The notes beneath the pieces were generated by a model that was given only the letters and a program-made list of their open reading frames with translations, did not search any database and was not told the origin of the DNA. Position numbers and translations under genes: made by a program. A stretch of DNA of 64,000 bases, from contig NZ_ATXI01000005.1 in the NCBI RefSeq assembly GCF_000421605.1, forward strand, positions 1 to 64,000, written 5' to 3'. Shown one piece after another: positions 3,471 through 58,555 of the stretch (within the stretch, counting starts at the first letter, position 1; each line of letters starts with the position of its first letter). This stretch comes from Thermodesulfobacterium thermophilum DSM 1276 (GTDB taxonomy: Bacteria > Desulfobacterota > Thermodesulfobacteria > Thermodesulfobacteriales > Thermodesulfobacteriaceae).

Positions 3471-4448
3471 ATGTTTTTCCCAGAGTATAGACCAAGAAGA
3501 CTAAGAAAAAACGAAAGCATCCGTTCCTTGGTAAGAGAAACCATTCTTACGGTAGATGATTTGATCTATCCTCTTTTTGTGTGTGAAGGTAAAGGGGTAA
3601 AACAGGAAATAAAATCTATGCCAGAGGTTTATCGGTTTTCTTTAGACCAGCTTATAGATGAAGTAAAGCAGGTAGTGGAATTAGGGATTAAAGCGGTTCT
3701 TCTTTTTGGCATACCTGATAGAAAAGATGAAGTAGGTAGTTCAGCCTATGCTAAAGAGGGTATAGTCCAAAAAGCTGTTAGAACTTTAAAAGAAAAATTT
3801 CCTGACCTTGTGGTTATTACAGACGTCTGTCTTTGTGAATACACTTCTCATGGACATTGTGGAATAATCAAAAATCATACGGTGGATAATGATGCCACCT
3901 TAGAGCAACTTGCTAAGATTGCTGTTTCTCATGCCAAGGCAGGTGCTGACATAGTTGCTCCTTCGGACATGATGGACGGAAGGGTAGGGCGGATTAGAGA
4001 AGCTCTTGATGAAGCAGGCTTCACTGACGTAGCTATCATGAGCTATGCAGTTAAATATTGTTCGGCTTTTTATGGGCCTTTTAGGGAGGCTGCTGAGTCA
4101 GCCCCTAAGTTTGGTGACCGCAGGTCATATCAGATGGATCCTGCTAACATAAGAGAGGCTTTAAGAGAGGCTTATTTAGACGTTCAAGAAGGTGCAGACA
4201 TTTTGATGGTTAAGCCTGCTATGCCCTATTTAGATGTAATAAAAACAATAAGACAAGAATTTAACCATCCGTTAGCTGCTTATCAGGTTAGCGGAGAGTA
4301 TGCTATGATAAAAGCTGCTTCTAAGTTAGGATGGCTTGATGAAGAAAAGATCATGTTTGAAAGTTTGATAGCCATTAAAAGAGCAGGAGCAGACCTTATC
4401 ATCACCTATTTTGCCAAAAAGTTTGCTCAGACCTTAGCTAAGAGATAG
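3471..4448 (+). CDS. hemB: porphobilinogen synthase (delta-aminolevulinate dehydratase)
   Basis: The enzyme condenses two 5-aminolevulinate molecules to porphobilinogen, an early step toward haem, sirohaem and cobamides. The 325 residues match the usual family length. The cysteine-rich metal site [13 protein letters not shown] lies near residues 118-130, and the Schiff-base lysines lie in [11 protein letters not shown] (about 193) and [10 protein letters not shown] (about 247). The presence of the Cys cluster points to the zinc-dependent type. GGAGG precedes the ATG, and pgi ends 9 bp upstream, so the two are co-transcribed. The demand for tetrapyrroles fits the c-type and bd cytochromes elsewhere in the window. 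Confidence 0.96.
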
Positions 4449-11903: not shown

Positions 11904-13703
11904 TTAGATTTCTAATCTTTTTAGGGTTTCTTCCTTAGGATAACCTTTTTCGTCCCAACCTCTTACCTCGTAGTATTTAGGCAAAAGGTCTGAAAGTTTA
12001 TGTACTACACCTTTGGAAGGGCCTTCAGGGATTGGTTCTTCAAGCAACCTCTTGGGAAGGGTATCTTGAGATGGGTCTATACCGGCTTTTAAGTTAAACA
12101 GTCTTTCTAAATTATAGATTCTTTCTCCTGCGGCAAGAAGGGTTTCTTCTGTGTAGTCGGTACCACAAACGGCATTCATCAGGTCTACATAGTCTTTAAG
12201 CCCTAAAGCAAAGGAGGTGAAAAGGCACATTCCAAGAGAATCTATAACCGCGGTTAGGTCTTGGAAAATTTTTGCCCATTCAGCCTTGCCTTCTGTAGAG
12301 AACCTGTCAAGCTTTTGAGGAATACCCGAGATTTCAGCAGAGATAAGATATCCTCTCACATGGCATCCACCCCTGTTGGCTGTGGCATAAACTAAACCAT
12401 GTCCTTGGACCCCTCTTGGGTCATAAGCAGGTAATTCTTGTTTTTTGACACTCATAGAAAGGTCGGGAGCACCGTAGGCCTCGCATAACCTGTAAGAACC
12501 TTCTGCCATCTTATCTCCTAAGCCTTCTCTTTTTCCTATTTTTATCGTCCAGCCTACTATTGCCTCAGGGTCTCCAAACTTAAGAGATAATCCATCTTTA
12601 GCTATCTCATCGTCTTTGATGTATCCTTTTTGATAAAGTTCCATAGCAGCTGCTATGGTAGCACCTGTAGAGATGGTGTCTAATCCATACTGATTACACC
12701 AGTAGTTAGCTTCAGAAATGGCATTTAAGTCATAAACCTCACAGTTGGCTCCATAAGACCATACAGTTTCATACTCAGGTCCACCAACCTCTTTTCCATC
12801 TTTTAACCTTACCACCCTTCCACAGGCTATAGGACATCTAAAGCAGGCATGTTTTTTGGTTAAAATAGTTTTAGCCATGGTTTCTCCACTTATCTTATCA
12901 GCCTCAGGGGTATAGGCTTTTTGAAAGTTAGCCACAGGGAAGATACCATGCTCGTTTATTATGTTTACCAAAATGGCTGTTCCGTATGCAGGAAGTCCTT
13001 CCCCAGTTACAGGGTTTTCACGAATGATTTTTATCTTGCTTGCTACTACATCTTTTACTTTTTGTTCGTCAGCCACAGAAACACCCTTACTACCTTTGGC
13101 TACTATAGCTTTTACGTTTTTAGACCCCATAACAGCACCCACTCCAGACCTTCCTGCTGCTCTATCATAATCGTTCATCACCGCAGCGATCCTTACTAAT
13201 TTTTCCCCTGCTGGTCCTATCGCAAGGACTTTGGCTTTATCTCCGTATTCTTGTTTTAAAAGGTCGGTGGTTTCATAAACTAACTTTCCCCAGAGATGGG
13301 TAGCATCCTTTATTTCAACCTTATCGTCTTCTATGGCGATATAGACTGGTTTGGGAGCTTTACCTTCAAGGATTATCATGTCATAACCAGCAGCTTTAAG
13401 TTCAGCACCAAAAAAACCTCCGGAGTTAGAACAAGCTATGGCCCCTGTCAGAGGAGATTTAGTAACTACCATATATCTTCCACCTGTAGGGACAGAGGTA
13501 CCGGTAAGAGGACCTGTGGTAATTATCAACTTATTTTCGGGGCTAAAGGGTTCTACTTTTGGGTTTATTTCCTCATATAAATACTTACTCGCAAGCCCTC
13601 TTCCTCCAATATACTTCTTAGCCCATTCAGCATTTAAATCTTCAACCTTAATGGTTTGATTGGTGAGGTTAATTCTTAAAATTTTTCCTGCATACCCGTA
13701 CAT
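11904..13703 (-). CDS. aor: aldehyde:ferredoxin oxidoreductase (tungsten/molybdenum bis-pterin enzyme)
   Basis: The 599-residue protein is full length for the AOR family. It oxidises aldehydes to carboxylic acids with ferredoxin as acceptor, or runs in reverse. The N-terminal domain has GKILRINLT, GGRGLASKYLYEE and TGPLTGT, typical pterin-binding parts. The [4Fe-4S] cluster ligands are in HACFRCPIACG (about residue 290) and the later SLGMCLF cysteine. It has a strong promoter of its own and a terminator, so it is likely a separate abundant transcript. Substrate and metal (W or Mo) cannot be read from sequence; the neighbouring maturase points to tungsten. Confidence 0.93.
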   Translation of the reverse strand: MYGYAGKILRINLTNQTIKVEDLNAEWAKKYIGGRGLASKYLYEEINPKVEPFSPENKLIITTGPLTGTSVPTGGRYMVVTKSPLTGAIACSNSGGFFGAELKAAGYDMIILEGKAPKPVYIAIEDDKVEIKDATHLWGKLVYETTDLLKQEYGDKAKVLAIGPAGEKLVRIAAVMNDYDRAAGRSGVGAVMGSKNVKAIVAKGSKGVSVADEQKVKDVVASKIKIIRENPVTGEGLPAYGTAILVNIINEHGIFPVANFQKAYTPEADKISGETMAKTILTKKHACFRCPIACGRVVRLKDGKEVGGPEYETVWSYGANCEVYDLNAISEANYWCNQYGLDTISTGATIAAAMELYQKGYIKDDEIAKDGLSLKFGDPEAIVGWTIKIGKREGLGDKMAEGSYRLCEAYGAPDLSMSVKKQELPAYDPRGVQGHGLVYATANRGGCHVRGYLISAEISGIPQKLDRFSTEGKAEWAKIFQDLTAVIDSLGMCLFTSFALGLKDYVDLMNAVCGTDYTEETLLAAGERIYNLERLFNLKAGIDPSQDTLPKRLLEEPIPEGPSKGVVHKLSDLLPKYYEVRGWDEKGYPKEETLKRLEI

Positions 13704-22598: not shown

Positions 22599-23534
22599 TT
22601 AGATTGTTTCTAAAATTTTCTTGATAACTTCTTCATTTTGAGTTAAAAACTCAATTTTTTGAGAGAATTCTTGACTATCTTTAACCTTAAAAATAAGTTC
22701 TATTTCTTTTTTTTCTAAGTAAGGAGATAGTTTTACGTTTATCTGTTTTTTTTGTAATTTCTCAATATAGGGTTTTAAAGTCATCATTTTTGCGGATAAG
22801 TTAGGGTAATAAAGCTCTTTTAGTCTTTCAAAAAAAGTTTTTCTTCTCTGGTTAAACTCCTCATAGTTTAAGGCATCTTTTAGCTCCTCAGGTAATAAGG
22901 AAGTTAACCTTAAACGGCGCTTTAGGTCTAAAAGTTTTTCCAACACCTCTCGTTGTTCGCTAAAACTTAGATTGAGCCGAGTTATCACCAACAAAAACTC
23001 TTTTTTTTCTGTTTCATTTAAAAATTTAAAAAATTGCAAAATATGAAGGTTTAGTTTATCATTAATGATTAAATTTTTAAATTCAATGTCTAATTTATTT
23101 ATTTCAAGTAAAATTTTAAGCCATATATTATTAGGAGGAAGATTAATTTTTTTCATCAGAATAAGGATTTCGTCTAAGGTGAAAAGAGGTATGGCTTTGT
23201 TTAGAAATTCAGCTTTTTCTACTAAATTCAGATTTCGGAAAAGATTGCTTTCTAAAGAAATAAGTAAGAGCTCTTTGGGAGAGAGGTTTTTTAAAACCAG
23301 AGCTTTAATCTCTTTAAATCCAATGGTTTTACAGGCTAAAACTCTACCTTCTCCGCAAATTATCTGAAAGGCTCCTTCTTTTGGAAGATAAAGGATAGGG
23401 GGTTGTAATAACCCCCAATTTTTGATACTTTCAATCAAAAAAATGTCTCTTTTAGGAAAAGAAAAAAGATAGGACCTATCTTCTGTCGACACAGAAGATA
23501 GGTCTATGGTTTTACATGTTATTGGGCCTAACAC
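22599..23534 (-). CDS. orphan ParB N-terminal domain (ParB/Srx fold) protein
   Basis: The 311-residue protein has a ParB-type CTPase fold in its N-terminal third. LIESIKNWGLLQPPILY, then GEGRVLACKTIGF corresponds to the GERRxxA motif, and LESNLFRNLNLVEKAEF to ENxxRxxLxPxE. The C-terminal 200 residues are Lys/Glu/Leu-rich and have no strong HTH that I can name. No parA and no parS-like repeat lie next to it, so a partition role is not supported. It starts with GTG overlapping the purC stop (TAGTG), so the two are translationally coupled. Confidence 0.7.
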   Translation of the reverse strand: MLGPITCKTIDLSSVSTEDRSYLFSFPKRDIFLIESIKNWGLLQPPILYLPKEGAFQIICGEGRVLACKTIGFKEIKALVLKNLSPKELLLISLESNLFRNLNLVEKAEFLNKAIPLFTLDEILILMKKINLPPNNIWLKILLEINKLDIEFKNLIINDKLNLHILQFFKFLNETEKKEFLLVITRLNLSFSEQREVLEKLLDLKRRLRLTSLLPEELKDALNYEEFNQRRKTFFERLKELYYPNLSAKMMTLKPYIEKLQKKQINVKLSPYLEKKEIELIFKVKDSQEFSQKIEFLTQNEEVIKKILETI

Positions 23535-30408: not shown

Positions 30409-31632
30409 ATGGAGTTGGTTGAAAAACTAATCAAAAAGGGAGATGCTAAGATCGTAAAAGTGGTACTTGACGGAATAGGAGATTTGCCTGTGAAAGACGG
30501 AAAAACCCCTTTAGAGTTAGCTTATACCCCTAATCTTGACCAGTTGGCTAAAAAATCAGCCACAGGCCTTCATATTCCTGTAGATTATGGGATTACCCCA
30601 GGTAGTGGTCCAGGACATCTTGGGATTTTTGGTTATGACCCCTCTCAAGTTACTATAGGAAGAGGTGTATTAGAAGCTTTAGGTGTAGGAATAGAATTAA
30701 AAGATATAGATGTAGCTGTTAGAGGTAATTTCGCTACGGTGGAGTATCAAAACCAAAATCCTATCGTAATAGATAGAAGGGCAGGGAGGATTCCTACTGA
30801 GGAGAATCAAAGGTTAATTGCCAAACTTTCCGAAAAAATAAAAAACATAGATGGTGTTGAGGTAATTTTAAAATCAGGAATGGAACACCGATTTGTGGTG
30901 GTTTTTAGGTTTCAAGAAAAGCTTTCAGATTTGGTAAATAAACTAAACGATACAGACCCTCAAGTTTTAGGAAAACCTCCTATCCCGGTTTCTTCTCCTT
31001 ATCCAGAGCTTAAAAAAGTAGTAGAGGTTGTCTCTAAGTTTATCGATCAAGCCTCTGAAATCTTAAAAGATGAACCTAAGGCCAATTACGTCTTGCTGAG
31101 AGGTTTTTCTGTAAAACCTGACCTTCCAACCTTACAACAAAGGTTTGGTATAAACCCATGTTGTATAGCAACCTATCCTATGTATAAAGGACTTGCAAGC
31201 CTTGTAGGTATGAAAGTAGTTCCTGTTAAAGGGACAGACCTGAAAGATGAAATCCAAGCTTTGAAAGAAGTTTGGGAAACTTACGACTACTTCTTTGTCC
31301 ATATAAAAAAGACTGATTCTTACGGAGAAGATGGAAACGCTGAGGCAAAAATTAAAACTATAGAGTCTTTTGATCAATACCTTCCCGAAATTTTAGACTT
31401 AAATCCCCAAGTACTTTGTATCACAGGAGACCACTCTACTCCATGTATTATGAAAGCCCATTCTTGGCATTCTGTACCTACCCTTATTTGGTCTCCCTAT
31501 GTCTTAGGGAATACCTCTGAAAGGTTTACAGAAAGAGAATGTCTGAAGGGAGAATTAGGTATATTTTATGCTTATAAACTGATGCCTCTGCTTTTGGCTC
31601 ACGCTGGGCGGCTAAAAAAATTTGGGGCCTAA
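30409..31632 (+). CDS. apgM: 2,3-bisphosphoglycerate-independent phosphoglycerate mutase, archaeal type
   Basis: The 407-residue alkaline-phosphatase-superfamily enzyme interconverts 3- and 2-phosphoglycerate. KVVLDGIGDLP near residues 18-28 gives the first metal aspartate. TPGSGPGHLGIFGYDP near 63-78 contains the phosphate-accepting Ser region. The late CITGDHSTPCIMKAHSWHSVP supplies the remaining Asp/His metal ligands. It is distinct from the bacterial GpmI type and is common in archaea and some deep-branching bacteria. It has GGGAGGG before its ATG, and only 51 bp separate it from the divergent mtgA. Confidence 0.94.
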   Translation: MELVEKLIKKGDAKIVKVVLDGIGDLPVKDGKTPLELAYTPNLDQLAKKSATGLHIPVDYGITPGSGPGHLGIFGYDPSQVTIGRGVLEALGVGIELKDIDVAVRGNFATVEYQNQNPIVIDRRAGRIPTEENQRLIAKLSEKIKNIDGVEVILKSGMEHRFVVVFRFQEKLSDLVNKLNDTDPQVLGKPPIPVSSPYPELKKVVEVVSKFIDQASEILKDEPKANYVLLRGFSVKPDLPTLQQRFGINPCCIATYPMYKGLASLVGMKVVPVKGTDLKDEIQALKEVWETYDYFFVHIKKTDSYGEDGNAEAKIKTIESFDQYLPEILDLNPQVLCITGDHSTPCIMKAHSWHSVPTLIWSPYVLGNTSERFTERECLKGELGIFYAYKLMPLLLAHAGRLKKFGA

Positions 31633-34498: not shown

Positions 34499-35149
34499 AT
34501 GGAAAAAATTATAGACATAAAAGGTCTGGTTTTTAAGTATAACGACCGTGTGGTTCTTGATGATTTAGAGTTAGAGGTTAGGGTAGGGGATAGAATAGGT
34601 CTTATAGGTCCTAACGGAGCAGGTAAAACCACCCTTCTTTACATTATCATGGGGTTCCTTAAACCTTTAAAAGGAAAGATAATTATTTTAGAAAAAGAAA
34701 GAAAAGAAGAGAAAGACTTTATAGAGGTTAGACAAAAAATAGGGCTTTTATTCCAAGATTCAGACTCTCAACTTTTTTGTCCCACGGTTAAAGAAGACAT
34801 AGCCTTTGGTCCTCTTAACTTGGGAAAAAGTCATGAAGAAGTTAAAGAGATAATAGATAAAGTAGCCCACTTTTTTGGAATAACCCATCTCTTGGAACGT
34901 CCAGTTTATAAACTTTCAGGTGGGGAAAAGAGGTTGGTGGCTTTAGCAGGGATTTTTGCGATGAACCCAATATGTTACCTTCTGGACGAACCTTCTGCAG
35001 GACTTGATGAACAAAGCAAAACCAAACTCATAGAATTTTTAAAAACACAATCTACCTATCTTATCGTTTCTCATGAGAAAGATTTTCTTAAAGAGGTTAG
35101 CAATAAAATCTTTAAGTTAGAAAAGGGTAAACTCTTTCAGTTACTTTGA
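34499..35149 (+). CDS. nikO: ECF transporter ATPase
   Basis: The 216-residue ABC ATPase has Walker A GPNGAGKTTL (about 38-47), a Q-loop (LFQDSDSQLFCPTV), the signature LSGGEKRLVALAG, and Walker B YLLDEPSAGLD. It is somewhat short for a CbiO (usually 250-280), ending soon after the switch His (IVSHEKDF). No ribosome site precedes the ATG, so it may be translated from nikQ. Its end overlaps the convergent thioredoxin-like gene by 9 bp. Confidence 0.94.
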   Translation: MEKIIDIKGLVFKYNDRVVLDDLELEVRVGDRIGLIGPNGAGKTTLLYIIMGFLKPLKGKIIILEKERKEEKDFIEVRQKIGLLFQDSDSQLFCPTVKEDIAFGPLNLGKSHEEVKEIIDKVAHFFGITHLLERPVYKLSGGEKRLVALAGIFAMNPICYLLDEPSAGLDEQSKTKLIEFLKTQSTYLIVSHEKDFLKEVSNKIFKLEKGKLFQLL

Positions 35150-35411: not shown

Positions 35412-36689
35412 TTAAGAGTTTATCATCCCAAAAATATATCCAGAAATAGTCCCTAAAAAGATTACTATAGCTGCATAAGTTAAAGTTTTTTTAACACCCC
35501 AGATACTTTTTAAGACTAAAAGGCTTGGTAAACTTACACTTGGACCGGCAAGCAAAAGAGCAAGGGCAGGGCCATATCCCATACCAGACCCTAAAAGCCC
35601 CTGGATGATCGGAACTTCGGTTAAAGTAGCAAAATACATCAAAACTCCCACTATACTGGCAAAAAAGTTGGCTAAAAGGGAGTTACCTCCTACTAAATAG
35701 TTGACATAGAAAGAAGGTATAAAGGCTTCATGTCCTGGTCTTCCTAAAAAGAATCCTGCTACAAAAACTCCAGCCAAAAGCAACGGTAAAATTTGTTTAC
35801 CTAAAAGATAGGTACTTTGAAACCATTTTTCCATGTCTCCTTTTGTCTTATAAAGAGCGTAGCTAAAACCTACTAAACCTACAAGAAAGGATATCTCCTT
35901 TTCATGCAGCAACACTTGCGTTAAAACTACAAAAAACCCAGTAAATATTAAATAAATAGCTGAAACTTTAAACCAAAAAACCACTTGTATTCCAATTAAT
36001 ATGGCTAAAAAACAGACAAGATACCATTTTATAGAAAAGATAAATCCTGCGAAACCTTCTTTAGCACCCCAGGTAGCAAAAATAAGAATACCAACCAAAG
36101 CTGAGAGCAATCCAACTTTTTGGTAAAAAGGTATGGTTTCTGAGGTTTTAGGAATTTCTATTTCACCTAACCTTTTAGTTTCATCTTTTCTAAAAAGATA
36201 GGCCATAAGTAATCCTACTATGATACTTCCTGCTATAGCCCCTACGGCTCTTGCCACTCCTATGTGGATACCTAAAATTTTCCCTGTAAGCACTATGGCT
36301 AATACGTTGATAGCAGGACCAGAATAAAGAAAGGTAGTAGCAGGACCAATGCCTGCTCCTCTAAAATAAATCCCCGCAAAAATAGGAAGGACGGTGCAAG
36401 AACAAACAGCAAGAATGGTTCCTGAAACACTGGCTACGCTATAGGAAACAACTTTTGGAGCCTGTGCTCCTAAATATTTCATCACAGAAGCCTCTGAGAG
36501 AAAAGTGGAAATAGCGCCTGCTATAAAAAGTGCTGGTAATAAACAAAAAATTACGTGTTCTCTTGCATATTCGTGAGTTAAATAGACAGCTTCTTTTAAA
36601 CCCTCTATAACCCTTTGTTCAGCAGGTAAAAAATAAAAAAACAAAAAAACAAACGCCGCAATCAACAAAAACTTTAGTTCTTTCAACAT
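35412..36689 (-). CDS. DUF318/ArsP-type two-domain permease
   Basis: The 425-residue membrane protein has about ten hydrophobic helices in two halves. The first carries VASVSGTILAVCSCTVLPIFAGIYFRG with the CSC pair typical of this permease family; the second has FATLTEVPIIQGLLGSGMGYGPALALLLAGPSVSLPS. The ArsP branch exports organoarsenicals, but other members have unknown substrates. The ArsR regulator upstream and thioredoxin-like protein downstream complete a frequent three-gene set. Metalloid export is an inference. Confidence 0.85.
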   Translation of the reverse strand: MLKELKFLLIAAFVFLFFYFLPAEQRVIEGLKEAVYLTHEYAREHVIFCLLPALFIAGAISTFLSEASVMKYLGAQAPKVVSYSVASVSGTILAVCSCTVLPIFAGIYFRGAGIGPATTFLYSGPAINVLAIVLTGKILGIHIGVARAVGAIAGSIIVGLLMAYLFRKDETKRLGEIEIPKTSETIPFYQKVGLLSALVGILIFATWGAKEGFAGFIFSIKWYLVCFLAILIGIQVVFWFKVSAIYLIFTGFFVVLTQVLLHEKEISFLVGLVGFSYALYKTKGDMEKWFQSTYLLGKQILPLLLAGVFVAGFFLGRPGHEAFIPSFYVNYLVGGNSLLANFFASIVGVLMYFATLTEVPIIQGLLGSGMGYGPALALLLAGPSVSLPSLLVLKSIWGVKKTLTYAAIVIFLGTISGYIFGMINS

Positions 36690-38661: not shown

Positions 38662-39516
38662 ATGAAGATAGGTTTTATAGGGCTTGGTACCTTAGGTATA
38701 GAGATAGCTAAAAGATTAATTTCGCAAGGTGTTGGGTTAATCGTTTGGAATAGGTCTAAAGAAAAAGCTAAACAGTTGGGACTTGACTTGGTAGAAACAC
38801 CCAAAGATTTGATTTCTATGGTAGATAAAGTTTTTATTATAGTTTCTGACAGTGAGGCTTCCAAAAAGATTATTTTTGGAAAAGACGGTCTTGTCGAGGG
38901 TGATATTCAGGGGAAGACCATCATAGATTTAACTACCAACCATTATCGATATGTGGTTGAAGCCGAAAAAGAGTTAAAACAAAAAGGGGCGTATTATTTA
39001 GAAGCTCCTCTGCTTGGTTCTGTTATCCCGGCACAAAGGGGTGAGTTAACTGTTTTGGTTGGTGGTGATCGAAATAAGTTTGAGGAAACAAAAGGTATTT
39101 TTGAAAAATTTTGTCGTAATATGATTTACTTAGGTGAAATAGGAAAAGCTACTAAACTTAAACTTATAAATAACATAGTATTAGGTGGTTACATGGCAGT
39201 TCTTGCTGAAGCTATGGCCATAGGAGAAAAGGCTGGTTTAGAAAAGGAACTTCTTTTAGAGGTGCTTTCTAAGGGTGCAGGACGGTCTTATGTTCTTGAA
39301 GTAAAAAAACAAAAGCTTCTTGAAGGGAAATTTGAACCGCATTTTTCTGTTGAGTTGATGTATAAAGACCTTCACTATGCTCAGGACTTATTCAAAGATT
39401 TTAAAGCCTTTAGCATGGTTCTGCAGAACGTAAAAGAGGTTTACGGTTTTGCCAGAAGCAAAGATTTAGGTCATCTAGACTTTTCTGTGGTGTATAAGAT
39501 TTTTAAGACTGAGTAG
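38662..39516 (+). CDS. beta-hydroxyacid dehydrogenase family NAD(P)-dependent oxidoreductase
   Basis: The 284-residue protein starts KIGFIGLGTLGIEIAKRL (GxGxxG nucleotide site). It has YLEAPLLGSVIPAQRGELTVLVGG, the substrate-binding segment of this family, and GKATKLKLINNIVLGG with the catalytic Lys. Family members reduce succinic semialdehyde or glyoxylate, or oxidise 3-hydroxyisobutyrate; the sequence does not decide which. CAGGAGG precedes its ATG. Confidence 0.9.
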   Translation: MKIGFIGLGTLGIEIAKRLISQGVGLIVWNRSKEKAKQLGLDLVETPKDLISMVDKVFIIVSDSEASKKIIFGKDGLVEGDIQGKTIIDLTTNHYRYVVEAEKELKQKGAYYLEAPLLGSVIPAQRGELTVLVGGDRNKFEETKGIFEKFCRNMIYLGEIGKATKLKLINNIVLGGYMAVLAEAMAIGEKAGLEKELLLEVLSKGAGRSYVLEVKKQKLLEGKFEPHFSVELMYKDLHYAQDLFKDFKAFSMVLQNVKEVYGFARSKDLGHLDFSVVYKIFKTE

Positions 39517-39588
39517 TCTTTAAGCTTGGTTACAAAATTATTTTATATCGTCATATTTTGTTATAAAAATTATTGCAGGAGGAAAAAA

Positions 39589-40410
39589 ATGATAAGTAAA
39601 ATTGCAGAAGCTTTAAAAATGCAATTTAATCCAGTTGCTGTAATATGGTCGGATGTAAAACCTGAAAATGCTTTACAATTTAAAGAAGGAAGATGGGGAT
39701 GTGTAATGTGGCTTTTTGTAAATGTAGCAAAAGGAAAAACAGCTGTTTTTGACAGAAAAACTTATGGATGTTGGGGTGGAGGAGTGGGGTTAGGTTTTGG
39801 AAATAAATATCTTGATTTCCCAGGAGGGATTGAGTGTTTTTATTATTTTCTTTCTTCAGGAAATAAAAACTGGGAGAAGGGTAAAATTGTAGCAGAAAAT
39901 CTAAAACCGTATGTAACTAAAGAATTTCTTGAAGAATTTTTAGAAGGAGAAAGGTATTTGAAAACTCCTGAACAGGTAAAAAAGTTTGTAGAAGAGTTAC
40001 CTATGATAGAAGTTCCGACAAAATATGTAGTATTTAAACCTTTAAAAGATGTAGACATTCATGAAGAAAGACCTGTTGTAATTGTCTTTCCTGTTAACCC
40101 TCATCAACTTTCTGCTCTTGTTGTTCTTGCAAACTATGGGAGAAACAGTTTTTTGGATAGTGTAATCATTCCCTGGGGTGCAGGGTGTCAGGCAATTGGT
40201 ATCTATGCGTATAAACAAAGAGAATCAGTTCCACAAAAAGCAGTAGTTGGATTGACAGACCTTTCAGCAAGAAAAAACGTTAGAAAACACCTTGGGGATA
40301 ACCTTTTTACTTTTGCTGTTCCTTATGAAATGTTTTTAGAAATGGAAGAAAATGTAGAAGGTAGTTTTTTCGAAAGGAATGTTTGGAAAAGTCTTTCTAA
40401 ATTTTTATAA
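39589..40410 (+). CDS. DUF169 family protein
   Basis: The 273-residue protein belongs to DUF169, whose function is unknown. It carries conserved features of the family: an early NPVAVIWSDVKPENA, RWGCVMWLF, YGCWGGGVGLGFG, GIECFYYFLSSG and GAGCQAIGIYAY. The repeated Gly-Cys segments suggest a metal or cofactor site. An upstream in-frame start (39526) is possible, but ATG 39589 follows AGGAGGA closely and is preferred. It is the last gene before the dif-like site. Confidence 0.85.
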   Translation: MISKIAEALKMQFNPVAVIWSDVKPENALQFKEGRWGCVMWLFVNVAKGKTAVFDRKTYGCWGGGVGLGFGNKYLDFPGGIECFYYFLSSGNKNWEKGKIVAENLKPYVTKEFLEEFLEGERYLKTPEQVKKFVEELPMIEVPTKYVVFKPLKDVDIHEERPVVIVFPVNPHQLSALVVLANYGRNSFLDSVIIPWGAGCQAIGIYAYKQRESVPQKAVVGLTDLSARKNVRKHLGDNLFTFAVPYEMFLEMEENVEGSFFERNVWKSLSKFL

Positions 40411-40449
40411 TCTGTCTGTATAATTTACATCTGTAGTTCCTTAAAAACA

Positions 40450-40477
40450 ACTTCCGATAATGTATATTATGTAAAAT
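40450..40477 (+). other. dif: dif-like chromosome dimer resolution site (XerC/XerD)
   Basis: The 28-bp site reads as an 11-bp XerC arm (ACTTCCGATAA), a 6-bp centre (TGTATA) and an 11-bp XerD arm (TTATGTAAAAT). Against E. coli dif, 22 of 28 positions match by eye; the centre is identical and the XerD arm differs at one position. The XerC arm is the more variable in all bacteria. It lies in the 223-bp gene-free gap between the DUF169 gene and the MetE-like gene. Single copy per chromosome is expected. Confidence 0.88.
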
Positions 40478-40494
40478 AAAGTTTCTGATTTTAA

Positions 40495-40515
40495 GAACCC
40501 TATAGGAACCCTGTA
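40495..40515 (+). repeat. short tandem direct repeat beside dif
   Basis: GAACCCTATA (40495-40504) is followed by GAACCCTGTA (40506-40515), two near-identical 10-bp units with an 11-bp period, starting 18 bp after the dif-like site. It is short enough to be chance. Confidence 0.35.
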
Positions 40516-40547
40516 TAAAAATCTTGGAAAAAACTCTTTGTTCTGTC

Positions 40548-40576
40548 TTGCCTTTATCTAAATTTTTAGTTAAAGT
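40548..40576 (+). promoter_or_regulatory. promoter of the MetE-like gene
   Basis: TTGCCT (40548-40553) and TAAAGT (40571-40576) are 17 bp apart. TAAGGAGG at 40616-40623 precedes the ATG at 40634. Confidence 0.6.
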
Positions 40577-40633
40577 TATAAAAACTTTCTTGAAGTTTTT
40601 GGTAATCTATCAAGATTAAGGAGGTTTTATCTT

Positions 40634-41683
40634 ATGGAGGCTATCGTTCAAAACTTAAAAACCACTCATATAGGAAGTCTTCCTTTTTCTGACCCTGAAA
40701 AAGCGGTAAAAATGGTTTTTGAATACTTAGACATACCTGCTTGGCCTCAACTATCTAAACGTAAAAACGAAGGAATGCTCGTTCAGTTTAACGAAGGCCT
40801 TCCAGGGTTTAACTGGGAAAAAGAAGTCTTAGACATATCTTCTTCTGATTTTGAAGAACAGATGATAATCTTTTATGAAAGCTATCTAAAAATCATCGAA
40901 GAAAATCAGTTGTCTGAGTTGGCTAACTTTGAACTCACAGAATCTACCGCCCTTGGTTTTAAGTTTTTTTTAGAAATAGCCTCTCAAGTTAAACCTGAGG
41001 TTGTAAAAGGCCAAATCACAGGCCCTTTTACCTTAGCCTCAAGCTTGAAACTTTCTACCGGAGAAAGTCCTATTTTTAGGGAAGACCTTAAAGACCTTAT
41101 CGTCAAGTTTGTACTGATTAAAGCCTTGGCCCAAGGATTAAAACTTAAAGAGATCTCCCCTAACGTAATTCTATTTTTCGATGAACCAGGTCTTGCAGGT
41201 TTTGGCTCATCATCTTTTATTACCGTTACCAAAGAAGAAGTTCTAAAAATGTTAAATGAGGTGATCTCAGGATTAAAGAACTTTAACTGTACGACGGGCA
41301 TTCATATCTGTGCTAATACTTCCTGGGATCTTCCCTTAAGTTCTGAAATAGATATCTTAAGTTTTGACAGTTTTAATTTTTACGAAAAATTAAGTATTTA
41401 TGCTGAAGAACTTAGAAATTTTCTTGAAAAAGAGAATAAGTATTTAGCCTGGGGAGTTGTGCCAACAGATAGCACGCAGTTAAAAGAGACAAGTTTTGAA
41501 GAGGTTTTGAAAAAGTTTGAGACTCAGTTGAAGGATCTTGCTGTAAAGCTCGGATTTTCTGAAGAAGAGCTGTTAAAAAAGAGTTTGTTTACTCCTGCCT
41601 GTGGTTTAGGAAGTCTTTCTGAAGACTTAGCTTTAAAAGCCTTGGAATGGCTTAAACGATTTAAACAAACCCTTAACTTATAA
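40634..41683 (+). CDS. core MetE-like methionine synthase / UROD-MetE superfamily protein
   Basis: The 349-residue protein corresponds to a single UROD/MetE barrel: TTHIGSLPFSDPEKAV at the N-terminus and KGQITGPFTLASSL in the middle. The zinc-ligand pattern of the MetE C-terminal domain is visible: GIHICANTSWD (His and Cys) and FTPACGLGSL (late Cys). It lacks the N-terminal half of classical MetE. In archaea and some anaerobes such core MetE proteins take methyl groups from corrinoid proteins. Methionine synthesis is inferred; another methyltransferase role is possible. Confidence 0.75.
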   Translation: MEAIVQNLKTTHIGSLPFSDPEKAVKMVFEYLDIPAWPQLSKRKNEGMLVQFNEGLPGFNWEKEVLDISSSDFEEQMIIFYESYLKIIEENQLSELANFELTESTALGFKFFLEIASQVKPEVVKGQITGPFTLASSLKLSTGESPIFREDLKDLIVKFVLIKALAQGLKLKEISPNVILFFDEPGLAGFGSSSFITVTKEEVLKMLNEVISGLKNFNCTTGIHICANTSWDLPLSSEIDILSFDSFNFYEKLSIYAEELRNFLEKENKYLAWGVVPTDSTQLKETSFEEVLKKFETQLKDLAVKLGFSEEELLKKSLFTPACGLGSLSEDLALKALEWLKRFKQTLNL

Positions 41684-41696
41684 TAAATGAAAAAAA

Positions 41697-42296
41697 ATGA
41701 AAAAATCGCTTTTAAACGAAAAGGTTTTAGTTTTAAACAAGTATTACCAGGCAATACAGATAACTACGGCACAGAAGGCTATATGCCATTTGGTTAAAGG
41801 TACCGCAAAGGTAATAACCCCAGATTGGACTACCCACACGTTTGAGGAATGGATAAAGGTAAGCAAGTTTTATGAAAATGGAGCTCAACTGATTAATAGT
41901 CCTTCTATCTCTATCCTTATACCTGAGGCTATCTATTTACCTTTTTATGAAAGACTTCCTAAAACCGAAGTTATTTTTTCCAGACAGAATTTGTTTTTAC
42001 GTGATCGTTTTACCTGTCAGTATTGTGGAAAATTTTTAAAAAATCCTAAGGATAGAACTATAGATCATATAATCCCTAAAAGCCAGGGAGGAAAAACTGT
42101 TTGGACTAATGTAGTCCTCTGTTGTAAAAAATGTAACCTTAAAAAAGGTAACAAAACCCCTGAAGAGGCAGGACTAAAACTTTTAAAAACCCCAAAACCA
42201 CCTAAATGGCAATCTCTTATTCTGGAAGAGTTCCCAAAACATAAAAAGGAAGTATGGAAGGTGTTTTTAGACTTTGCTGGGATAATAGAAGATTAA
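41697..42296 (+). CDS. HNH endonuclease family protein
   Basis: The 199-residue protein has an HNH domain in its C-terminal half: RDRFTCQYCGKFL, then TIDHIIPKSQGG, NVVLCCKKCNLKKGN. These supply two zinc CxxC pairs and the DH...N catalytic residues. The N-terminal half (VLNKYYQAIQITTAQKAICHL) is typical of a widespread standalone bacterial family, not of introns or phage terminases. The function is unknown. Its 3' end overlaps the convergent DnaJ-like gene by 4 bp. Confidence 0.88.
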   Translation: MKKSLLNEKVLVLNKYYQAIQITTAQKAICHLVKGTAKVITPDWTTHTFEEWIKVSKFYENGAQLINSPSISILIPEAIYLPFYERLPKTEVIFSRQNLFLRDRFTCQYCGKFLKNPKDRTIDHIIPKSQGGKTVWTNVVLCCKKCNLKKGNKTPEEAGLKLLKTPKPPKWQSLILEEFPKHKKEVWKVFLDFAGIIED

Positions 42297-50408: not shown

Positions 50409-52478
50409 CTACTCTCTCACTATCTTTACTACTTCTAATACCTCAATGTTAACCTCAAAGGGTATTTCTGCTTGCGAAACTACCGGAACATAATAAAGAC
50501 TTCTTTCTATTAATTTTCTAAGATGTCTTCTTATAGTAGGACTACAGATAATAACAGGGACTATGTTTTTTTGCCCTGCCCTTTCTACTGCTTGGGTTAA
50601 GGCTGCTACTATTTTGCTTCCTATCTTAGGGTCTATCATCAGAAAAACTCCTTGCTCTGTTCTTTGAAGTGATTTTCTTAAGGTTTCTTCTATATCATCT
50701 CCTACTACTAATGCAGGAAGCTTTCCGTCGATTAAATATGGTTTTACTATATACCTGTTTAACTTTTGTCTTACATATTCAGTAAGTACGTCAGGATCTT
50801 TTATAGAGGGAGCATAGTCGCTTATGGTTTCAAAAATGGTGACATAATCTTTCAACGGAATACCCTCTTTTATTAAGTTTTGTAATACCTTTTGGATTAA
50901 AGTTAAATTAGCATTGTTTAAGCATTCTTCAACTATTTTAGGATAATATTTACTCACACTGTCTAAGATCCTTTGAACTTCTTGTTTAGTCAAGAATTCG
51001 TCTGCATGTTTTTTTACCACCTCAGAAAGATGAGTAGTTATAACGGTAGAAAGGGTAACTACGGTAAAACCTGTCATTTCTGCTTCTTCCTTTTGGTCTT
51101 CAGGAATAAAATAGGCTGTCATACCAAAGGTAGGCTCTTTAGTAGGAATGGCTCCAGAAGGAGGAGAGAGGTCAGGGGTTGAGGGAAGAGCCATAAGATA
51201 GTTTGGCATAAGCTCTCCCTTAGCTATTTCGACTCCTTTTATCAGTATCACATATTCTCCAGGTTTGAGACTTAAATTATCTCTTACATGAACAGAAGGG
51301 ATCCTTATCCCTAACTCTTGGGCAAGATGTTTCCTTAAGTTTTTAATCCTTTCAAGTAAATCTCCTCCTCTGTTTTCGTCAGCAAGATAAATCAAAGCAT
51401 ATCCTAACTCTAAGGCCAGAAGTTCTACAGGTCTTATTTCTTCTAATTCAGGTGGAGCTTGTGGAGCCTCTTCTTTAGTTACCTCTTCAGCCTCTACCTT
51501 TTGCTGATTTTTATAGGCTACATATCCTAAAGAAAAAAGGATTACGCTAAAAATAAAGAGAGGTAAAAAGGGAATTCCTGGTATCAAAGCTATAGCTAAA
51601 ACTATACCACTTGCCAACCAAAGTACCTCTGGTTTTTGGGCAAATTGCATTACCAAATCTTTACCAAGCCCTGCTTCTGCTGCAGCCCTACTAACCAAAA
51701 TACCTGCTGAAGTAGAAACAATCAAAGCTGGAATCTGGGAGACTAATCCGTCTCCTATGGTAAGGATGGTATAAGTTTTGGCTGAGGTCGCAAGGTCTAA
51801 ACCTTTTTGTAAAGTTCCGATAAGAATCCCTCCTATAATGTTAATAGAAGTGATAATAAGCCCTGCGATAGCTTCCCCTCTTATAAACTTAGAGGCACCA
51901 TCCATCGCCCCGTAAAAATCAGCTTCCTTAGCGATTTCTTCGCGTCTTCTTTTGGCCTCTTTTTCATCTATTAGACCTGCGTTTAAGTCCGCATCGATAG
52001 CCATCTGTTTCCCTGGCATGGCATCGAGTGTAAACCTGGCTGCTACTTCAGCAATCCTGCCAGCTCCTTTGGTAATAACCACAAAATTTATCAACACCAG
52101 GATTAAAAACACGATAAAACCAACTATATAATTGCCCCCTACCACTACTTCTCCAAAACTTTTAATGATATAACCGGCTGCTACCGTCCCTTCATGACCT
52201 TTAAGAAGGATAACCCTGGTAGTAGCTATGTTCATCGCTAATCTAAAAAGTGTGGTTAAAAGTAAAAGAGCTGGGAAACCTGTAAAATCAAGGGGTTTGT
52301 TAACTTGCATGGTCATGATTAGAATTAACACAGAAACAGAAAGATTAAGGCTTAAGGTAAGATCGATAAGATAAGGAGGAAGAGGAAAAAGCATGATCGC
52401 AAAAAGAACTACTATACCTAAAACAGCAAATATACTATAACGATCTGGAATGTATTTAACTATTAAACTTTTTTCCAT
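50409..52478 (-). CDS. flhA: flagellar export gate protein FlhA
   Basis: The 689-residue protein has about eight N-terminal membrane helices with the FHIPEP-family signature region (GHEGTVAAGYIIKSFGEVVVGG, then DLNAGLIDEKEAKRRR) and a C-terminal cytoplasmic domain ending in VNIEVLEVVKIV. It forms the nonameric ring of the export gate. The length is normal. It overlaps nothing and is 4 bp from flhB. Confidence 0.96.
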   Translation of the reverse strand: MEKSLIVKYIPDRYSIFAVLGIVVLFAIMLFPLPPYLIDLTLSLNLSVSVLILIMTMQVNKPLDFTGFPALLLLTTLFRLAMNIATTRVILLKGHEGTVAAGYIIKSFGEVVVGGNYIVGFIVFLILVLINFVVITKGAGRIAEVAARFTLDAMPGKQMAIDADLNAGLIDEKEAKRRREEIAKEADFYGAMDGASKFIRGEAIAGLIITSINIIGGILIGTLQKGLDLATSAKTYTILTIGDGLVSQIPALIVSTSAGILVSRAAAEAGLGKDLVMQFAQKPEVLWLASGIVLAIALIPGIPFLPLFIFSVILFSLGYVAYKNQQKVEAEEVTKEEAPQAPPELEEIRPVELLALELGYALIYLADENRGGDLLERIKNLRKHLAQELGIRIPSVHVRDNLSLKPGEYVILIKGVEIAKGELMPNYLMALPSTPDLSPPSGAIPTKEPTFGMTAYFIPEDQKEEAEMTGFTVVTLSTVITTHLSEVVKKHADEFLTKQEVQRILDSVSKYYPKIVEECLNNANLTLIQKVLQNLIKEGIPLKDYVTIFETISDYAPSIKDPDVLTEYVRQKLNRYIVKPYLIDGKLPALVVGDDIEETLRKSLQRTEQGVFLMIDPKIGSKIVAALTQAVERAGQKNIVPVIICSPTIRRHLRKLIERSLYYVPVVSQAEIPFEVNIEVLEVVKIVRE

Positions 52479-57970: not shown

Positions 57971-58555
57971 TTAGAACTTTTTAAAAATAAACTTTAAGAG
58001 AGAAACTACTAAAAAGATTTTTAACAGGTCTCCGTAGATAAAGGGTAGACTTCCTATATTCAATAAAACCTTTAAGTCAGAAATTTTTAAAACCCAGCCT
58101 AACCAAACCAGTCCCAAAAGATGAATAATCCCAAAATTTACTAAGGTTAAAAGCAAAACAACTCCTGAAAAACTCTTAGCCCATTGAAATCTATGATATA
58201 TCAAGCTAACTATCAAACTTGCAGGAAGAAAACTTAATAGATAACCTCCTGTAGGTCCCAAAAATGTTAAAAAACCACCAGTTAACCCTGCAAACCAGGG
58301 AAACCCTACCCCACCTAAAAACAAATAGAAAAAATTAGCTAAACCACATCTAAAGGGAGAAAATAAAAGAGCAGTCATAAAAACTCCAAAGGTCTGAAAG
58401 GTTACCGGTACAGGAGAAAAAGGAAGATAAAACTTAAGGTTAGAACAAATACCTATCAAAAGAGCTCCAATTAGTCCCCAAAAAATTTCTACCTTAATAT
58501 TACTTTGTTTAAAAACTTCTGAACTTAAAACTGACATCTCTAAAGTCCTTTTCAT
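57971..58555 (-). CDS. bioY: biotin transporter BioY
   Basis: The 194-residue membrane protein has about six helices. The family signatures LPFSPVPVTFQTFGVFMTALL and FLGGVGFPWFAGLTGGFLTFLGPTGGYLLSF are both present. BioY is the biotin-binding S-component of ECF importers, which can use a shared ATPase module; no bioMN genes are adjacent. A CAGGAGGG ribosome site precedes the ATG, and a BirA-like operator lies just upstream. Confidence 0.95.
   Translation of the reverse strand: MKRTLEMSVLSSEVFKQSNIKVEIFWGLIGALLIGICSNLKFYLPFSPVPVTFQTFGVFMTALLFSPFRCGLANFFYLFLGGVGFPWFAGLTGGFLTFLGPTGGYLLSFLPASLIVSLIYHRFQWAKSFSGVVLLLTLVNFGIIHLLGLVWLGWVLKISDLKVLLNIGSLPFIYGDLLKIFLVVSLLKFIFKKF

Follow-up and report, generated by a model that had tools for sequence, protein, structure and literature searches.

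The dif site of Escherichia coli consists of 28 bp in an 11-6-11 layout, with a XerC arm, the centre TGTATA and a XerD arm (GGTGCGCATAA-TGTATA-TTATGTTAAAT), and the FtsK-orienting (KOPS) motif of the same organism is GGGNAGGG. Closer to the lineage studied here, delta-proteobacterial dif sites are known from Geobacter sulfurreducens (ACGTCCCATAAGATATATTATGTAAAGT) and Anaeromyxobacter (ACGTCCGATAATATGGATTATGGTAACT), and the work describing them reports that dif there likewise has a spacing of 6 bp and varies at position 13 (Carnoy and Roten 2009, PMC2731167). The main text of Kono et al. (2011, PMC3025954) gives dif predictions for 641 organisms of 16 phyla and contains no word starting with "Thermodesulf".

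The site described below, from a Thermodesulfobacterium genome, has the length, the layout and the centre of E. coli dif and a XerD arm with one change, but its XerC arm carries five mismatches. Its genome also shares with the E. coli XerCD-dif-FtsK system the motif GGGNAGGG, two Xer recombinases and a FtsK gamma domain. It differs from E. coli in that the host belongs to a thermophile lineage and in that dnaA appears to lie near the terminus rather than at oriC. With the sites of Geobacter sulfurreducens and Anaeromyxobacter it has in common a TCC(C/G)ATAA-type XerC arm and the XerD arm TTATG(T/G)(A/T)AA, whereas the centre and the outer bases are different.

The dif site and its conservation

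The 64,000 nucleotides analysed (hereafter the window) form the beginning of contig C5, which is 112,319 bp long and belongs to a 1.79-Mb draft genome of 46 contigs with an estimated completeness of 100%. Positions 40450-40477 read ACTTCCGATAATGTATATTATGTAAAAT on the plus strand, that is, ACTTCCGATAA-TGTATA-TTATGTAAAAT from XerC arm to XerD arm. Direct comparison with E. coli dif confirmed what the original prediction had claimed: 22 of the 28 positions match, the 6-bp centre is the same and the XerD arm has a single mismatch. By homology, the predicted XerC-binding arm ACTTCCGATAA occupies 40450-40460, the central hexamer, or strand-exchange region, 40461-40466, and the predicted XerD-binding arm TTATGTAAAAT 40467-40477 (all on the plus strand), and the arms and the centre fit the dif family consensus. 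The setting is gene-free, as had been stated: the list of open reading frames places the site in a 223-bp intergenic gap (40411-40633) between a DUF169 gene (PF02596; 39589-40410, plus strand), which ends at 40410, and a gene that starts at 40634. The latter (40634-41683, plus strand) encodes 349 amino acids that look MetE-like by eye and give no Pfam hit.

From base composition, matches to E. coli dif at 22 or more of 28 positions are expected 0.004 times per window and 0.10 times per genome, a rate that gives some room to a chance AT-rich near-palindrome that merely resembles dif. The match by itself is suggestive, and it is the conservation of dif that settles the identity of the site. The possibility of several copies was not borne out by a search of the whole 46-contig draft with up to three mismatches, which found the 28-mer once and gave no control hits. 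A second, looser match at C8:100303 (GATAATTTAGGTTATGGAAAAT) was set aside as probably coding, with the in-frame reading DNLGYGK; it recurs in the genomes G001, G006 and G010, where no more than one base is different.

A pattern search allowing two mismatches identified exactly one site in 11 of the 12 other Thermodesulfobacterium genomes that are at least 80% complete, and none in G003 (93% complete, 110 contigs) or in G011 (70% complete). The related sites in other Thermodesulfobacterium (loci L106, L122 and L154) include that of T. hveragerdense DSM 12571, and further sites were seen by pattern search across the family, the order and the phylum. When 32 sites were aligned, positions 4, 5 and 7-11 of the XerC arm and 10 of the 11 XerD-arm positions proved invariant, and the XerD arm is identical to ours in 30 of the 32; this invariance is partly built in, as the search pattern used to gather the sites already specifies the inner arms. 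What is informative is therefore that the centre is free, that the 6-bp spacing is exact at one place per genome, and that the sequences flanking the 28 bp have diverged beyond close relatives. Ten different hexamers occur at the centre, among them TGTATA, GATATA, TGGATA, TGAACA, TATATA and TAAATA. Fixed arms at a fixed spacing around a free centre are expected of dif, because the centre need only match itself.

Single copies in relatives, with diverged flanks, already contradict a chance resemblance, as does the coincidence of the site with a skew peak and a flip of the KOPS motif (see below), and we regard this explanation as vanishingly improbable. We conclude that 40450-40477 is almost certainly the chromosomal dif of a Thermodesulfobacterium species.

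Another genus of the same family provides a separate observation. The genome G019 has its own dif with the centre TGGATA and two further dif-like sites (L277:7602 on its contig C4 and L278:7829 on its contig C5), in which the arms are intact and the centre is TAAATC. These two lie on contigs other than that of dif, with unrelated flanks, and are possibly plasmid or mobile-element sites.

Gene turnover at the left edge of dif

The genome G006 is collinear with the one studied here at 93-95%, apart from the segment that holds the DUF169 gene. Here and in G013, the closest complete genome (collinear with C5 at ~95% identity), a segment of 923 bp (window 39526-40448) separates the preceding gene from dif; in G006 the corresponding distance is 36 bp and the DUF169 gene is not at this position. 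The break of the segment is flush with the XerC arm. As the same DUF169 gene is also found near dif in G008, G004 and G012, both a loss in G006 and a gain here are possible. The gene at 38662-39516, with 3-hydroxyisobutyrate dehydrogenase-like domains, is missing from this place in G010. Judged by these comparisons, gene content turns over at the left flank of dif; Xer recombination as the cause would be conjecture.

Since one gene with its flanks ends flush with the XerC arm here and in G013 and is missing from G006, the left edge of the site is a junction, and the 28 bp could be taken for the Xer attachment site of an integrated mobile element (an IMEX, phage or plasmid module) instead of a chromosomal dif. 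We consider this very unlikely. Paired sites flanking mobile-element genes, as in IMEX or pdif arrangements, were not found: at up to three mismatches the genome holds one site, with no second attachment site and no element genes beside it. Moreover, the right-hand flank of dif is the same in G006, which lacks the gene there, and the site is single-copy across the genus.

For the chromosomal dif, we speculate that the turnover of its central hexamer (ten forms in 32 sites, with fixed arms) might be driven by selection to escape mobile elements that hijack the Xer system, traces of which would be the TAAATC pair in G019 and, in the genome studied here, the gene-sized junction flush against dif. 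We think this unlikely to be the case.

Xer recombinases, FtsK and orienting motifs

The genome encodes three tyrosine recombinases. The first, XerD, scores above the TIGR02225 cut-off and has the XerD structure 1a0p as its nearest PDB entry (E=9e-73). The second is a Xer protein whose best model is that of XerC (TIGR02224); at 326.7 bits it falls ~8 bits short of the cut-off of 335.15. The third, an integrase of 399 aa, fits neither XerC nor XerD. The recombinase genes looked for after the original prediction are thus present in the genome as xerD and a xerC-like gene, the product of the latter below the TIGR02224 cut-off. We also identified FtsK, with the 4TM, alpha, motor and gamma domains in Pfam. 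When aligned with the crystal entries 2j5o and 2ve8/2ve9, its gamma domain is seen to retain the helix (R/K)IGYNRAAR (RIGYNRAAR here, KIGYNRAAR in 2ve8/2ve9).

Motifs that could orient this FtsK converge on dif. On the left side of the site, the window contains GGGNAGGG on the plus strand at 3982-3989, 12054-12061, 30779-30786, 34581-34588 and 35564-35571, and on the right side it contains minus-strand copies at 50574-50581 and 58304-58311, so that all seven are directed towards dif. For the whole of C5, the motif is forward in five of five cases to the left and reversed in nine of ten to the right, a ratio of 14:1 towards dif (Fisher p=0.002). In the regions near dif of nine genomes, which are not independent because our genome, G013 and G006 are close relatives, 82 copies point towards the site and 15 away from it.

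General strand bias dominated a blind octamer scan for orienting motifs, and GGGNAGGG was instead compared with motifs of the same composition. Near dif, GGGNAGGG is the most polar of 56 motifs made of the same letters (5.1, compared with 3.4 for the runner-up and a pooled ratio of 1.5 for the 56). In the stretches sampled from three genomes it also ranks first of the 56 (127:48), with a modest margin over the second (2.59 vs 2.48). This first rank indicates that the polarity is not merely a product of leading-strand G-richness. The change of direction of an FtsK-orienting motif at this point, proposed as a check on the site, is therefore observed for GGGNAGGG.

By analogy with E. coli, an odd number of crossovers would fuse sister chromosomes into a dimer, and FtsK at the septum would be steered to dif by the GGGNAGGG motifs. 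Its gamma domain would there switch on XerD, and strand exchange around the central 6 bp, first by XerD and then by XerC, would yield two monomers.

The replication terminus and the position of dnaA

On C5, the cumulative G-C count has its maximum at 41,883, 1.4 kb from dif, and declines rightwards from there. In the complete relatives, skew was followed in sampled stretches of ~20 kb, 40 of them in G013 and 20 each in G010 and G004. The sampled maximum of G013 lies at 481,150, next to dif at 481,243. With the coarser sampling of 20 stretches, maximum and dif are 227 kb apart in G010 (730 kb and 957 kb) and ~104 kb apart in G004 (1,350 kb and 1,246 kb), and in both genomes they fall on the same side of the chromosome. 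The site is thus at or near the junction of the replichores, with an extremum of GC skew at dif on C5 and in G013 and a looser agreement in G010 and G004.

Genes directed towards dif also have a higher GC3 skew than those directed away from it; this skew was taken at third positions on the coding strand and is independent of the number of genes per strand. The values are 0.163 vs -0.046 in G013 (p=2.7e-39), 0.141 vs -0.038 in G010 (p=4e-15) and 0.209 vs 0.064 in G004 (p=3e-9). The 16S rRNA gene and rpoB are directed towards dif in all three genomes. The complete genome G018, from another genus of the family, has a dif-like site and, unlike Thermodesulfobacterium, hardly any bias along the chromosome in GC skew or in gene strand; the position of dif therefore gave no information there.

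The original prediction drew on the strand of the genes for its view that the site marks the probable replication terminus. It is correct that every gene from 42293 to the window end is on the minus strand (26 minus and 0 plus among those of at least 90 aa). However, the run extends for just ~23 kb, plus-strand genes returning at 65,424 on C5, and open reading frames to the left of dif are mixed in strand (22 plus, 20 minus), so that this argument is weaker than was stated. The terminus itself is supported by the skew peak, the GC3 skew and the KOPS flip, and we place it here because of skew and motif polarity, not because of the minus-strand run.

A gene that is commonly taken to mark the other end of the replichores lies unexpectedly close to the site in some of these genomes: in a paper that uses the coverage tool GRiD, dnaA is the usual marker of the origin and dif that of the terminus for quality control (PMC8579995). 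Each complete genome tested has a single dnaA. It lies at 429,574 in G013, 52 kb from dif, at C1:1055897 in G010, 99 kb from dif, and at C1:334 in G004, 388 kb from dif, and in all three it is away from the sampled skew minimum. In the genome studied here, dnaA is on contig C25 (L281:4634-5995, minus strand), which is collinear with G013 at 425-435 kb, and by this synteny it probably lies ~50 kb to the left of dif.

This proximity, seen in G013 and suggested by the collinearity of C25, would also suit a replication origin with inverted skew at this location, the likeness to dif being incidental. Such an origin is extremely unlikely. If dnaA is treated as the origin, the GC3 difference changes sign in G013 and G010, so that leading-strand genes have a lower GC3 skew than lagging-strand genes, and leading-strand genes become a minority in G013 and G004. 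In addition, the rRNA genes, rpoB and GGGNAGGG are all directed towards dif, not away from it. We conclude that dnaA misleads as a marker of the origin in Thermodesulfobacterium, since two of the three closed genomes carry it close to the terminus and the third has it off the skew minimum.

ParB was tried as another origin marker and rejected; its main copy is at 792 kb in G013 and at 642 kb in G010, off the skew minimum. Separately, the window has a ParB_N domain at 23241-23438 (minus strand), weak but above the cut-off, in a 334-aa open frame 17 kb from dif, and frames with this domain also occur near dif in G013 (463,927) and G010 (941,716). No DnaA-box pairs of the form TTATNCACA-N0-30-TTATNCACA were detected in eight genomes, and a scan of the sampled stretches for DnaA boxes with one mismatch revealed no cluster of more than three, so that oriC was not located.

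On the sequence evidence, the site is a genuine and ordinary example of a well-known type that marks the terminus region, with binding and recombination by XerC and XerD predicted. This dif provides a firm terminus landmark for Thermodesulfobacterium, which helps to orient draft genomes and helps in estimating growth rates from read coverage.
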